Assembly (NCBI RefSeq): GCF_014636495.1
Contig: NZ_BMEM01000001.1
Span: 124,001-188,000, forward strand
Length of the DNA: 64,000 nucleotides
Direction: 5' to 3'
DNA from: Ornithinimicrobium tianjinense
Lineage (GTDB): Bacteria > Actinomycetota > Actinomycetes > Actinomycetales > Dermatophilaceae
The first letter of the stretch is position 1. The number at the start of each line of letters is the position of its first letter. The notes under the pieces were generated by a model. The model was not told the DNA's origin. It saw only the letters and a list, made by a program, of their open reading frames with translations, and ran no database searches. Of this stretch, positions 9,860-49,505 are shown in pieces. A program made the position numbers and the translations under genes.

Positions 9860-10570
9860 ATGGAAGAGCGAGCGCGAATCGTCATCGGCGTCCTGAGAGC
9901 CAGCGGAGGGTTGGGGGCCAGTACCCTCGCGGCAGCCGTCGCCCGCGTGGCGGCCGACGTGGGCCGCTCGGCCCTGCTGGTCGACCTGGGTCCGCACGGG
10001 GGAGGGATCGACAGCCTCGTCGGGTGCGCGCACGAGCCAGGGGTGCGTTGGGTCTCGGGCGTGCGCCGCGGCGCCGTCGACCCCGGCACGTTGCCGCAGT
10101 GGCACGGGCTGCACGTGCTCAGCCATGGACGGCTGCTGCCGCCGGGCGAGACCCTCGGTCGGGAGGCGCTGGGCGTCGTGACGGGCCTGACGAGGTCGTT
10201 CGACGTCACGGTCCTCGACCTGCCCGTCCCGGACCACCCGCACTCCCGCACGTGGCTCGGGCTCTGTGACGCGGTCGTGCTCCTCGTGGGGTCGCGGCCG
10301 GCCCAGGTGGCTGCGGCGCTGACGGTCCACGGCATGGCCGGCCAGGTGATGGGCGTCGTGGTGCGTCCTGCCTCCGGTGGCCTGCGGTCGTCCGACGTGG
10401 CGGACGCGCTGGGGCTGGAGCTCGTGGGGGTGCTCGGTGATGACCCGCAGGCGCTGCGGGCCCACCTGTCCCAGGAGCCGCCGGGGCGGGAGGACGGGCC
10501 GCTGCGCGACGTGGCGGCCGGCATCCTGGCCAGCTGCGGCTGCCCGGGCCGGAGCGAAGGAGCGGCCTGA
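9860..10570 (+). CDS. CpaE/TadZ-like ATPase (septum-site-determining Ssd-like), Tad locus
   Basis: A 236-residue MinD/ParA-superfamily protein. It starts with RIVIGVLRASGGLGAST, a deviant Walker A of the CpaE kind, and has LLVDLGPHGGGID and VTVLDLPVPDHP as the later ATPase strands. In Tad systems such proteins position the secretion machinery at a cell pole; the mycobacterial homologue is called Ssd. It fits the 'helicase/secretion neighborhood CpaE-like' family of actinobacteria. The ATG at 9860 is used; an in-frame TTG at 9851 is the alternative. The stop overlaps the tadA start by one base, so the two are translationally coupled. Confidence 0.85.
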   Translation: MEERARIVIGVLRASGGLGASTLAAAVARVAADVGRSALLVDLGPHGGGIDSLVGCAHEPGVRWVSGVRRGAVDPGTLPQWHGLHVLSHGRLLPPGETLGREALGVVTGLTRSFDVTVLDLPVPDHPHSRTWLGLCDAVVLLVGSRPAQVAAALTVHGMAGQVMGVVVRPASGGLRSSDVADALGLELVGVLGDDPQALRAHLSQEPPGREDGPLRDVAAGILASCGCPGRSEGAA

Positions 10571-11727
10571 TGGAGCGCGTGGGCCCTGCGCCCGGTGCCG
10601 CCGTCCGCGGCCATGGGCCGGACGGCAGCGCGGGGGCGGGTGGATCCATGCCGCCTGCCGCCGTGGCGGCGACCGGGTCCGTCGCGGCAGCGCTCGGTCC
10701 GCTCGCCGCGCTGCTCGAGGACCCGCTGGTCACCGACGTGCTGGTCAACGGCGACAGCGGGGTCTGGGTGGACCGGGGGCGCGGCGTCGAACCGGCTCCG
10801 GTGGTGCTCAGCGACGATCGATCCGTGCGCCGTCTTGCCGTCCGCCTGGCGGGCCTCGCCGGGCGGCGGCTCGACGACGCGAGTCCCTACGTCGACGGGT
10901 TGCTGCCGGGCGGGGTGCGTCTGCACGCAGTCCTGCCGCCGGTGGTGTCCGGTGGGCCCCACGTCAGTCTGCGCGTGCCGCGGTCGGTGGCGCCCAGCCT
11001 GCATCGGCTGGTGGCCTGGGGTGCGCTCGATGAGCGAGCACGGACGGTCCTCGAGTCCGTCGTCGCGGCTCGCGCCTCCTTCCTGGTGACGGGCGGGACG
11101 GGCTCCGGCAAGACGACGCTGCTCGCCGCGATGCTCGGCTGCGTCGAGCCTGCGGAGCGCGTGGTCGTCGTCGAGGACGTCCGTGAGCTCTCGGTCGACC
11201 ATCCGCACGTGGTGCACCTCCAGGGACGCAGCAACAACGTCGAGGGGCGCGGCGAGGTCACGCTCACCTCGCTGGTGCGGCAGAGCCTGCGGATGCGGCC
11301 GGACCGCCTTGTGGTCGGCGAGGTGCGCGGCGGGGAGTGCCGGGAGCTCATGGCCGCGCTGAACACCGGTCACCGGGGTGGCTGCGGGACCGTCCACGCC
11401 AACGCGGCCTCCGACGTGGTGGCCCGCATGGAGGCCCTGGGAGCCCTGGCGTCGATGAGCCCCGATGCTGTCCACGCCCAGCTCGCCAGCGCCGTCGAGG
11501 TCGTCGTGCACGTCGCGCGGGACGACGGGCGTCGCCGGCTCACCGAGGTCGCCGTCCTCGAGCGGGGCGCCGACGGCCGGGTGCGAGCGGTGTCCGCGCT
11601 GGCAGGTGGGCCGGGCCGCTGGCAGACGGGGCCGGGCTGGGGACGGCTGAGCGGCCTCCTTGGGCTGCCCCGGGACCTGCGCGACCTCCTGCCCCGCACG
11701 CCGGACACCCGCGTCGTCGTCCGATGA
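10570..11727 (+). CDS. tadA: TadA/CpaF-type secretion ATPase
   Basis: A 385-residue hexameric motor ATPase that powers pilus assembly from the cytoplasmic side of the membrane. Walker A is GGTGSGKTTL, the Walker B region is LVVGEVRGGE, and VVVVEDVRELSVDHPHVV and the His-box-like LNTGHRGGCGTVHAN are typical of the family. An N-terminal domain (DVLVNGDSGVWVDRG) is the usual N-domain of CpaF-like ATPases. The first 27 residues are Gly/Ala-rich and a later start (for example GTG or ATG near residue 27) is possible. It sits in a tightly packed operon: 1-bp overlap with the CpaE-like gene, 4-bp overlap with tadB. Confidence 0.92.
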   Translation: MERVGPAPGAAVRGHGPDGSAGAGGSMPPAAVAATGSVAAALGPLAALLEDPLVTDVLVNGDSGVWVDRGRGVEPAPVVLSDDRSVRRLAVRLAGLAGRRLDDASPYVDGLLPGGVRLHAVLPPVVSGGPHVSLRVPRSVAPSLHRLVAWGALDERARTVLESVVAARASFLVTGGTGSGKTTLLAAMLGCVEPAERVVVVEDVRELSVDHPHVVHLQGRSNNVEGRGEVTLTSLVRQSLRMRPDRLVVGEVRGGECRELMAALNTGHRGGCGTVHANAASDVVARMEALGALASMSPDAVHAQLASAVEVVVHVARDDGRRRLTEVAVLERGADGRVRAVSALAGGPGRWQTGPGWGRLSGLLGLPRDLRDLLPRTPDTRVVVR

Positions 11728-47198: not shown

Positions 47199-47300
47199 GG
47201 GGTGAGTCTAGGAGGTCGGCGCGACGCGGCCCGGCGTCCGGAGGGTCGCAATGTCGCTTTTCTGCTAGATCACAGGTCCACCACCGGTGATGATGGGGTC

Positions 47301-49427
47301 ATGGACCCCTCGACCTTCCACCTGGACCACGCGCGCTGCGCGGCGGCCGTGAGCAGCAGGGACCGCAGGTTCGACGGCTGGTTCGTGACCGCGGTGCTGA
47401 GCACCGGCATCTACTGCCGCCCGAGCTGCCCGGCCATGACGCCCAAGCTCGTCAACATGAGCTTCTACCGCTCGGCCGCGGCCGCTCAGGCGGCAGGCTT
47501 CCGGGCGTGCAAGCGCTGCCTGCCGGACGCCACCCCCGGGTCCCCCGAGTGGCACGTGCGTGGTGACGTCGTCGCCAGGGCGGTCCGGCTCGTTGCGGAC
47601 GGAGTCGTGGAGCGGGAGGGCGTCGGGGGGCTGGCCGAGCGGCTCGGCTACTCCACCCGCCAGGTCGAGCGGCTCGTGGGAGCCGAGCTCGGGGCCGGTC
47701 CGCTGGCCCTCGCGCGCGCCCAGCGGGCCCAGGCCGCCAGGGTGCTGCTGGAGAGCACGGACCTGCCGATGTCCGAGGTGACCTTCGCCGCCGGTTTCGC
47801 GAGCATCCGGTCCTTCAACGACACCGTGCGCACCGTCTACGGGGCGACGCCGTCCGAGCTGCGCGCCGGCCGCCGGGGGCGCGGGGCCCGGGCGCGGAGG
47901 GGGCCAGCCGTGCGTGAGGTGCGGGGCGATCTCCCCGACGCCGGGGCGCTGGTGCTGCGGGTCCGTCTCGCCTTCCGGGCGCCGCTGCACGTTCCGAGCC
48001 TGTTCGGTCACCTGGCGGCGACCGCCGTCCCGGGCCTGGAGGTATGGCGTGCCGGTCGCCTCGAGCGCAGCCTGAGCCTTCCGCACGGCTGCGCCGTGGT
48101 GCGGCTGGCGGCCCCCGGCCCGGAGGACCGGCACGTGGAGGCCGAGCTGTCCCTGGAGGACGGCCGTGACCTCACGACGGCGATCCAGCGCTGCCGTGGG
48201 CTGCTCGACCTGGACGCCGACCCCGCGGCTGTCGATGCGCGTCTCAGCAGCGACCCCGCGCTGGCGCCTCTGGTCGCGGCCACCCCCGGGGTCCGCCTCC
48301 CGGGCACGGTCGACGCGGGGGAGATGCTGGTCCGGGCCGTGCTCGGTCAGCAGGTCTCCACCGCCGCGGCGGCCACCCAGACCGCCCGTCTCGTCTCGCG
48401 GCTCGGTGCCCCGCTGCCGCCGGAGCTCGTCCAGCCCGGTGGTCCGACTCACCTGTTCCCGACCGCCGCCGCCATCGCCGGCGCCGCCGACGGGGACCTG
48501 CCCGGTATGCCGTCCAGCCGGCGCCGCACCCTGCGCGCGGTGGCGGAGGCGCTGGCGGACGGCCGGCTCGACCTCGGGCCGGGCTCCTCCTGGGAGCAGG
48601 CCCGCGAGCAGCTGCTCGCCCTGCCCGGCATCGGTCCCTGGACGGCCGAGATCGTGGCCCTCCGCGGGCTGGGTGACCCGGACGCTTTCCCCTCGACCGA
48701 CCTCGGTGTCCGCCTGGCCGCCCAGGCGGTGGGCCTGCCGTCGGAGAGCCGGGCGCTCACGGCGCACGCCGAGCGGTGGAGACCCTGGCGCTCCTACGCC
48801 GTGCAGCTGCTCTGGGCCTCCAGCGACCACGCCGTGGCCCGACTGCCCCAGACCTCGACCGAAGGAGACACCATGTCCACGACGTCCCCCACCCCCAGGC
48901 ACACCCGGGTCACCATCGACTCGCCGGTGGGCCCGCTCGCCCTGGTGAGCGACGGTGAGCACGTCACCGGCGTGTTCTTCGAGACCCACAAGCACGCTCC
49001 TGCCGACCTCGGCACCGAGGTCGCGCTCGAGGACGCGCCGGCGGTGCTGCGATCGGCGGCCGAGCAGCTGGCGGAGTACTTCCGCGGTGAGCGACAGGAG
49101 TTCGACCTCCCGGTCGCCGCGGTCGGCACCGAGTTCCAGCGGCGGGTCTGGGCCCTCCTGCGCACCATTCCGTACGGCCAGACCTGGTCCTACGGGCAGC
49201 TCGCGACGGCGCTGGGTCAGCCCGGCGCCTCCCGGGCGGTGGGTCTGGCCAACGGCCGCAACCCCATCTCCATCATCGTCCCGTGCCACCGGGTCGTCGG
49301 GGCGGACGGGTCGATCACCGGCTACGGCGGCGGCATCGAGCGCAAGCAGCACCTCCTCGACCTCGAGCGCGGCGCCACCACCGCCACTGCCACCACCACC
49401 ACGGCCACTACCACCACCCTCTTCTGA
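47301..49427 (+). CDS. Ada metal-binding/AraC domain - AlkA glycosylase - OGT methyltransferase fusion
   Basis: A 708-residue open frame joining three alkylation-repair modules. Residues 1-85 are the Ada zinc domain with Cys39, Cys43, Cys70 and Cys73, which in Ada takes methyl groups from phosphotriesters. An AraC-type helix-turn-helix follows (about 90-190). An AlkA 3-methyladenine glycosylase (about 205-505) has LPGIGPWTAEIVALRG and the catalytic Asp467. The usual stop after AlkA is absent; the frame continues into an O6-alkylguanine-DNA methyltransferase with the acceptor Cys662 in IIVPCHRV. AAGGAG and ATG at 48873 in the same frame suggest that OGT is also made alone. The tail is Ala/Thr repeats. 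Confidence 0.85.
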   Translation: MDPSTFHLDHARCAAAVSSRDRRFDGWFVTAVLSTGIYCRPSCPAMTPKLVNMSFYRSAAAAQAAGFRACKRCLPDATPGSPEWHVRGDVVARAVRLVADGVVEREGVGGLAERLGYSTRQVERLVGAELGAGPLALARAQRAQAARVLLESTDLPMSEVTFAAGFASIRSFNDTVRTVYGATPSELRAGRRGRGARARRGPAVREVRGDLPDAGALVLRVRLAFRAPLHVPSLFGHLAATAVPGLEVWRAGRLERSLSLPHGCAVVRLAAPGPEDRHVEAELSLEDGRDLTTAIQRCRGLLDLDADPAAVDARLSSDPALAPLVAATPGVRLPGTVDAGEMLVRAVLGQQVSTAAAATQTARLVSRLGAPLPPELVQPGGPTHLFPTAAAIAGAADGDLPGMPSSRRRTLRAVAEALADGRLDLGPGSSWEQAREQLLALPGIGPWTAEIVALRGLGDPDAFPSTDLGVRLAAQAVGLPSESRALTAHAERWRPWRSYAVQLLWASSDHAVARLPQTSTEGDTMSTTSPTPRHTRVTIDSPVGPLALVSDGEHVTGVFFETHKHAPADLGTEVALEDAPAVLRSAAEQLAEYFRGERQEFDLPVAAVGTEFQRRVWALLRTIPYGQTWSYGQLATALGQPGASRAVGLANGRNPISIIVPCHRVVGADGSITGYGGGIERKQHLLDLERGATTATATTTTATTTTLF
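48873..49427 (+). CDS. ogt: Methylated-DNA-protein cysteine methyltransferase, internal start within the fusion
   Basis: The last 184 codons of the fusion form a complete OGT with its own signals: AAGGAG at 48861-48866 and ATG at 48873. Domain order is normal: a small N-terminal strand region (RVTIDSPVGPLALVSDGEHV), then the active domain with FQRRVWALLRTIPYGQTWSYG (split by a few residues), PCHRV (Cys138 in this numbering) and GYGGGIERKQHLL. It removes methyl groups from O6-methylguanine in a suicide reaction. Whether the cell makes the fusion, this short form or both cannot be told from sequence. Confidence 0.7.
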   Translation: MSTTSPTPRHTRVTIDSPVGPLALVSDGEHVTGVFFETHKHAPADLGTEVALEDAPAVLRSAAEQLAEYFRGERQEFDLPVAAVGTEFQRRVWALLRTIPYGQTWSYGQLATALGQPGASRAVGLANGRNPISIIVPCHRVVGADGSITGYGGGIERKQHLLDLERGATTATATTTTATTTTLF

Positions 49428-49458: not shown

Positions 49459-49505
49459 ACGGCGGGTCGGCTCTCCCTCCCCCAGGAGAGAAACCGACCC
49501 GCCGT
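49459..49505. terminator. Bidirectional terminator between ogt and lsr2
   Basis: ACGGCGGGTCGG (49459-49470) pairs with CCGACCCGCCGT (49494-49505), with an inner CTCTCC/GGAGAG stem. Runs of A precede it on the plus strand, giving a T-tract for lsr2. Confidence 0.8.

Follow-up and report, generated by a model that had tools for sequence, protein, structure and literature searches.

One reading frame through ada, alkA and ogt

The window, a 64,000-nucleotide stretch of the Ornithinimicrobium tianjinense genome, carries on its plus strand a fused ada-alkA-ogt frame (47301..49427) encoding 708 amino acids. Its 708 codons run from 47301 to 49424 with no stop before the one at 49425, in agreement with the in-frame fusion proposed in an earlier note on this DNA. 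The domain order given in that note (Ada_Zn, HTH_18, AlkA, OGT) is recovered by Pfam, every match exceeding its own cut-off: the Ada zinc-binding domain Ada_Zn (residues 13-76, 47337..47528), an AraC-type HTH_18 domain (residues 111-189, 47631..47867; E 1.2e-18), AlkA_N (residues 221-338, 47961..48314), an HhH-GPD glycosylase domain (residues 344-496, 48330..48788), Methyltransf_1N (residues 538-606, 48912..49118) and DNA_binding_1, the O6-methylguanine methyltransferase DNA-binding/active-site domain (residues 611-690, 49131..49370), all on the plus strand. Read from its own ATG, ogt (48873..49427, plus strand) encodes 184 amino acids and lies in the same frame as alkA.

The key residues are those of all three activities. 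In alignments, Cys39, Cys43, Cys70 and Cys73 stand opposite the zinc cysteines of E. coli Ada, which we take to be its zinc ligands, with Cys39 at the position of Cys38. Likewise, Asp467 and Trp447 stand opposite Asp238 and Trp218 of E. coli AlkA, Asp238 presumably being the catalytic aspartate. The N-terminal part has what defines an Ada regulator (AdaA), four zinc cysteines including the methyl acceptor and then an AraC-type helix-turn-helix, and the combination of AlkA_N, HhH-GPD and the catalytic Asp points to an AlkA glycosylase. Cys662, located in a PCHR motif, is aligned with Cys126 of M. tuberculosis OGT, the role of which is described in PMC7432924. With this acceptor cysteine and both of its domains, the C-terminal part is a predicted OGT (AdaB). 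The cysteine sites named in the earlier note are thus present.

An AlphaFold model built on a 32-row alignment has a mean pLDDT of 87.4 and a pTM of 0.59, with low-confidence stretches at residues 74-85, 199-213, 522-531 and 700-708. The third of these is the junction linker (48864..48893, plus strand; pLDDT under 50), located where the alkA stop and the ogt start overlap in relatives, and it is probably disordered. In Foldseek comparisons, the AlkA part of the model matches E. coli AlkA (1mpg) with a TM score of 0.87 and the OGT part matches M. tuberculosis OGT (4wx9) with a TM score of 0.88, both by target length. The model pictures separate folded domains, predicted with confidence and joined by flexible links, so that OGT would be tethered rather than built in. 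The OGT part ends in an Ala/Thr-rich low-complexity tail (49386..49424, plus strand), a repeat that sequence comparison found absent from the OGT of the 30 relatives compared. The fused locus is the sole such locus in its own genome, in which two further matches are weak and partial.

Upstream of the gene lies a conserved 18-nt element, ATGTCGCTTTTCTGCTAG (47251..47268, plus strand), which ends 32 nt before the start codon and is a candidate Ada operator/promoter. Its consensus, RTGTCS-NN-TTYC-NGCYAG, spans several actinobacterial families: of 67 loci counted without duplicates, the window among them, 55 have at least 11 of the 14 core positions ahead of ada-alkA (59 of 71 with duplicates), 38 of these 55 copies sit 32-33 nt before ada-alkA, and only 20 of 4020 shuffled upstream regions reach the same score. 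The only exact copy of ATGTCGCTTTTCTGCTAG in the genome stands before ada. A genome-wide regulon search returned this exact site and two with 2 mismatches, versus eight for a reversed control pattern at the same tolerance; thus, only the site before ada is meaningful. No paper describing the element was found in the literature search, and a sigma-70 promoter scan found no promoter. The intact element suggests that the fused gene is regulated as before. On the 3' side of the gene, between convergent genes, a 12-nt perfect inverted repeat (49459..49505) is a possible terminator.

The junction in related genomes

Because stops are few in G+C-rich DNA, an open frame is by itself little evidence; that of the fusion is already open from 45177, upstream of 47301. 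The weight rests on comparison with relatives, since there the genes are separate and, within the genus, out of frame. The genus grouping comprises 31 genomes, the window's own included, and takes in Serinicoccus kebangsaanensis (L033, junction as in L010) and an Ornithinimicrobium MAG (L034, junction as in L021). Twenty of the 31 contain an intact, separate ada-alkA/ogt pair, nine (G019 and G023 among them) are without an adjacent pair, one (G004) has a broken alkA, and the sole fusion is that of the window. In each of the 20 intact congeneric pairs, the alkA stop and the ogt start form a 4-nt overlap (19 ATGA and 1 GTGA), which places ogt in a different frame from alkA. The earlier note had described ada-alkA followed by ogt as the usual neighbour arrangement; it proves tighter than was claimed.

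The AlkA tails of 17 congeners (among L004-L021) are of low complexity and 20-53 residues long, counted from LW. The alkA stop stays locked to the ogt start in the genus despite this variable tail length. The same ada-alkA/ogt order with an ATGA overlap also occurs in three Vibrio species (L039-L041), whose Ada and AlkA show identities of only 32-38%.

The window's junction differs from that of its relatives in two respects: alkA is in the frame of ogt, and ATGA is replaced by ATGT. A T follows the ATG at 48873, so the former alkA stop is gone. Neither the separate ada-alkA stop of a two-gene operon, there being no stop from 47301 to 49425, nor the stop/start overlap of an ATGA-coupled pair is found at this single-frame junction.

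Junctions were also classified by a script applying a mechanical rule, with ATG, GTG or TTG as starts, to 83 deduplicated Ada-bearing loci including that of the window's genome; five rows that were duplicates and three lacking Ada had been left out beforehand. In this set, picked by match strength and not randomly, 58 loci show a 4-nt overlap and 5 a 1-nt overlap, in 16 the stop is followed by a gap, 1 overruns and 3 are 'fused'. In some loci, for instance those of G554, G407 and G448, alkA and ogt share a frame, yet a stop lies in between. The three loci classed as fused are those of the window, G004 and G300. The latter two were rejected as further fusions: in both G004 (L065) and G300 (L111/L132) the alkA frame is broken inside its core and the ATGA is kept, and in G004 just part of AlkA is in the frame of ogt. 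A broken core with a retained ATGA has the appearance of an error or a fresh mutation.

Wider searches returned no second clean Ada-AlkA-OGT fusion among the matches listed for the relatives, the family, the class, the phylum and the genus of G300. At 1e-120 the family search matched 52 of 186 genomes, and at 1e-110 the phylum search matched 72 of 346; these matches were covered in full, and in each search the window's genome alone had a stop-free whole-protein match. The class search gave matches at 1e-100 in 265 of 393 genomes and the search of G300's genus matches at 1e-150 in 213 of 248; across these two and 117 relatives, G300 was the only other stop-free full-length match among the matches listed. 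The family, phylum, class and genus samples overlap, and fusions scoring below the thresholds would escape these counts. Two lesser candidates were also rejected: the match to residues 401-696 in G031 proved to be no more than OGT when the parts were searched separately, and that in G023 (75-235 of 295) is OGT only, cut by a contig end. No paper on an Ada-AlkA-OGT fusion was found in the literature searched, which took in few subscription journals.

A rival reading is that the frame is a sequencing or assembly error, the true alkA ending before or at ogt as in relatives. The fusion is known from one genome and one sequence, the broken alkA frames of G004 and G300 mimic fusions, and one substitution in the linker could mask a stop; a single sequence leaves room for such an error at any of nine linker codons. 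However, recovering the relatives' layout takes two changes, one of frame and one from ATGT back to ATGA. In neither other frame is a stop close to the ogt start; the first ones come at 48946 and 48956, which is 73 and 83 nt into ogt. One base wrongly gained or lost would thus not recreate the junction of the relatives. The reported frame has a third-position G+C of 0.91 across alkA and 0.94 across ogt, the assembly is 100% complete in 12 contigs, and the flanking genes appear intact by eye. An error is therefore very improbable.

When 27 combined Ada-AlkA and OGT sequences were placed on a tree with L029 as root, the window's branch fell within the congeners showing the overlap. The surrounding groups of 16 and 17 members are supported at 0.953 and 0.916, and support is low for the exact place of the window (0.673) and for all 18 genus members (0.625). 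The window's root-to-tip length (1.344, versus 1.159-1.456 in 17 congeners) gives no sign of relaxed constraint in this tree. A first mixed alignment, which set AlkA against OGT columns, was replaced by a second.

The ogt start signal and the proposed products

The Shine-Dalgarno sequence of ogt, AAGGAG (48862..48867, plus strand), lies 5 nt ahead of the in-frame ATG at 48873, and the strong in-frame start that the earlier note had placed here (48862-48875) is confirmed. In the window, AAGGAGN4-8ATG occurs five times, compared with an average of 0.33 over 100 shuffles, and by eye the other four sites are the starts of glyoxalase-like, Lsr2-like, Tad/CpaF-like ATPase and ClpC-like genes. The 14-base ogt start signal AAGGAGACACCATG is identical in the window, L004 and L011, and AGGAG precedes the ogt start in 17 of 20 congeners. 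The internal ribosome-binding site is thus not the addition that the earlier note had made of it: judging from these sequences, it is most likely the ancestral, ordinary ogt start signal, and what has disappeared is the stop of alkA. A further stop/start overlap (TGATG), with an AAGGAG, lies at 10557-10572 between two genes that by eye look Tad-like.

Of the old junction, then, the stop is gone but the start signal remains intact, which hints that free OGT is still made from 48873, although a young fusion would look alike. The gene probably gives two products, the three-part protein and OGT alone. Alternatively, the long protein may be the only one and the start at 48873 out of use: ribosomes on alkA would cross the site without stopping, now that the overlap for re-initiation is gone. 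This is quite unlikely, given that AAGGAG and its 5-nt spacing are intact and that the window's four other such sites look like gene starts.

A stronger contender, if still an unlikely one, is a neutral accident, in which the fusion would be translated to no benefit, with most functional OGT arising at the internal start and the OGT attached to Ada-AlkA being a mere passenger. The ogt start signal persists and looks, by eye, stronger than that before 47301, the range of AlkA tail lengths in the 17 congeners suggests that extension is tolerated, and the fusion is very rare among the matches listed. Against it, the key residues are kept and the rate is not increased, observations that fit a neutral and a useful fusion alike.

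A real, derived fusion of ada-alkA and ogt that has kept the ancestral ogt start is the best explanation, and a fairly probable one. The ancestor would have had the common actinobacterial ada-alkA/ogt pair, its stop and start codons overlapping in ATGA, which couples translation through termination and then re-initiation. In this lineage, the variable AlkA tail would have changed in length, bringing alkA into the ogt frame, and the old stop would have become ATGT. Set against a selected origin, G+C-rich frames stay open by chance, so fusion is expected once the frame changes, with or without selection. Ribosomes starting at 47301 would read on into OGT, giving Ada-AlkA-OGT, and others would start at the untouched AAGGAG-ATG (48873), giving free OGT; the retained signal may be a sign of a young fusion only. 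More generally, a simple route to fusion is apparent: an ATGA overlap puts the second gene in a shifted frame, so that a single change of frame within the first gene's loose end fuses them, and the second start signal survives.

Upon alkylation, the Ada zinc cysteine Cys39 would become methylated and activate the promoter of its own gene, the AlkA module would remove N-alkyl bases, and the OGT module would repair O6-alkylguanine at Cys662, with free OGT from the internal start supplying the suicidal enzyme in excess. Autoregulation, and any benefit of the fusion, we infer. A more elaborate version, a one-gene adaptive response, seems doubtful: one frame would yield a sensor-activator-glycosylase-methyltransferase plus extra free OGT, and the methylated Cys662 of the tethered OGT would send a second damage signal back to transcription.

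The closest known system is the mycobacterial ada-alkA/ogt (adaA-alkA, adaB) operon, which has the same domains in the same order but as two genes and two proteins, whereas here a single frame runs through both. In M. tuberculosis, expression of this pair rises with methylating agents, according to excerpts of PMC7432924, PMC5751216 and PMC8151990. In M. smegmatis, Ogt pulls down Ada-AlkA and the purified proteins co-elute in gel filtration at about 120 kDa, as reported in PMC7432924. By analogy, the fusion appears to be a covalent counterpart of this complex, whose place tethering would take. A natural fusion of Ada-AlkA with OGT provides independent support, of the Rosetta-Stone type, for the reported binding of both proteins, and with it for the idea that the actinobacterial pair jointly fills the role that Ada has in E. 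coli.

E. coli Ada (AdaA-AdaB) resembles the fusion in having a DNA-binding part and both methyl-acceptor sites, C38 and C321, on one polypeptide, as given in PMC4437013. Thus, two methyl-acceptor cysteines on one regulator, as raised in the earlier note, are already known. Unlike in E. coli, where AlkA is separate, AlkA here lies between the helix-turn-helix and the OGT part. The junction of the relatives is of the kind seen in ATGA/TGATG overlapping pairs, for which excerpts of PMC10666635 and PMC6728339 describe termination-reinitiation, whereas the alkA-ogt junction in the window has lost both overlap and stop. In this organism, coupling by fusion can readily be tested against coupling by overlap. 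The locus is a clean, real, single-species variant of a known repair operon, its novelty being the lost stop, not the start.

Inside ogt, a terminator-like hairpin with a T-rich tail (48953-48969, plus strand) matches the consensus only; if real, it would cut the message of both products.
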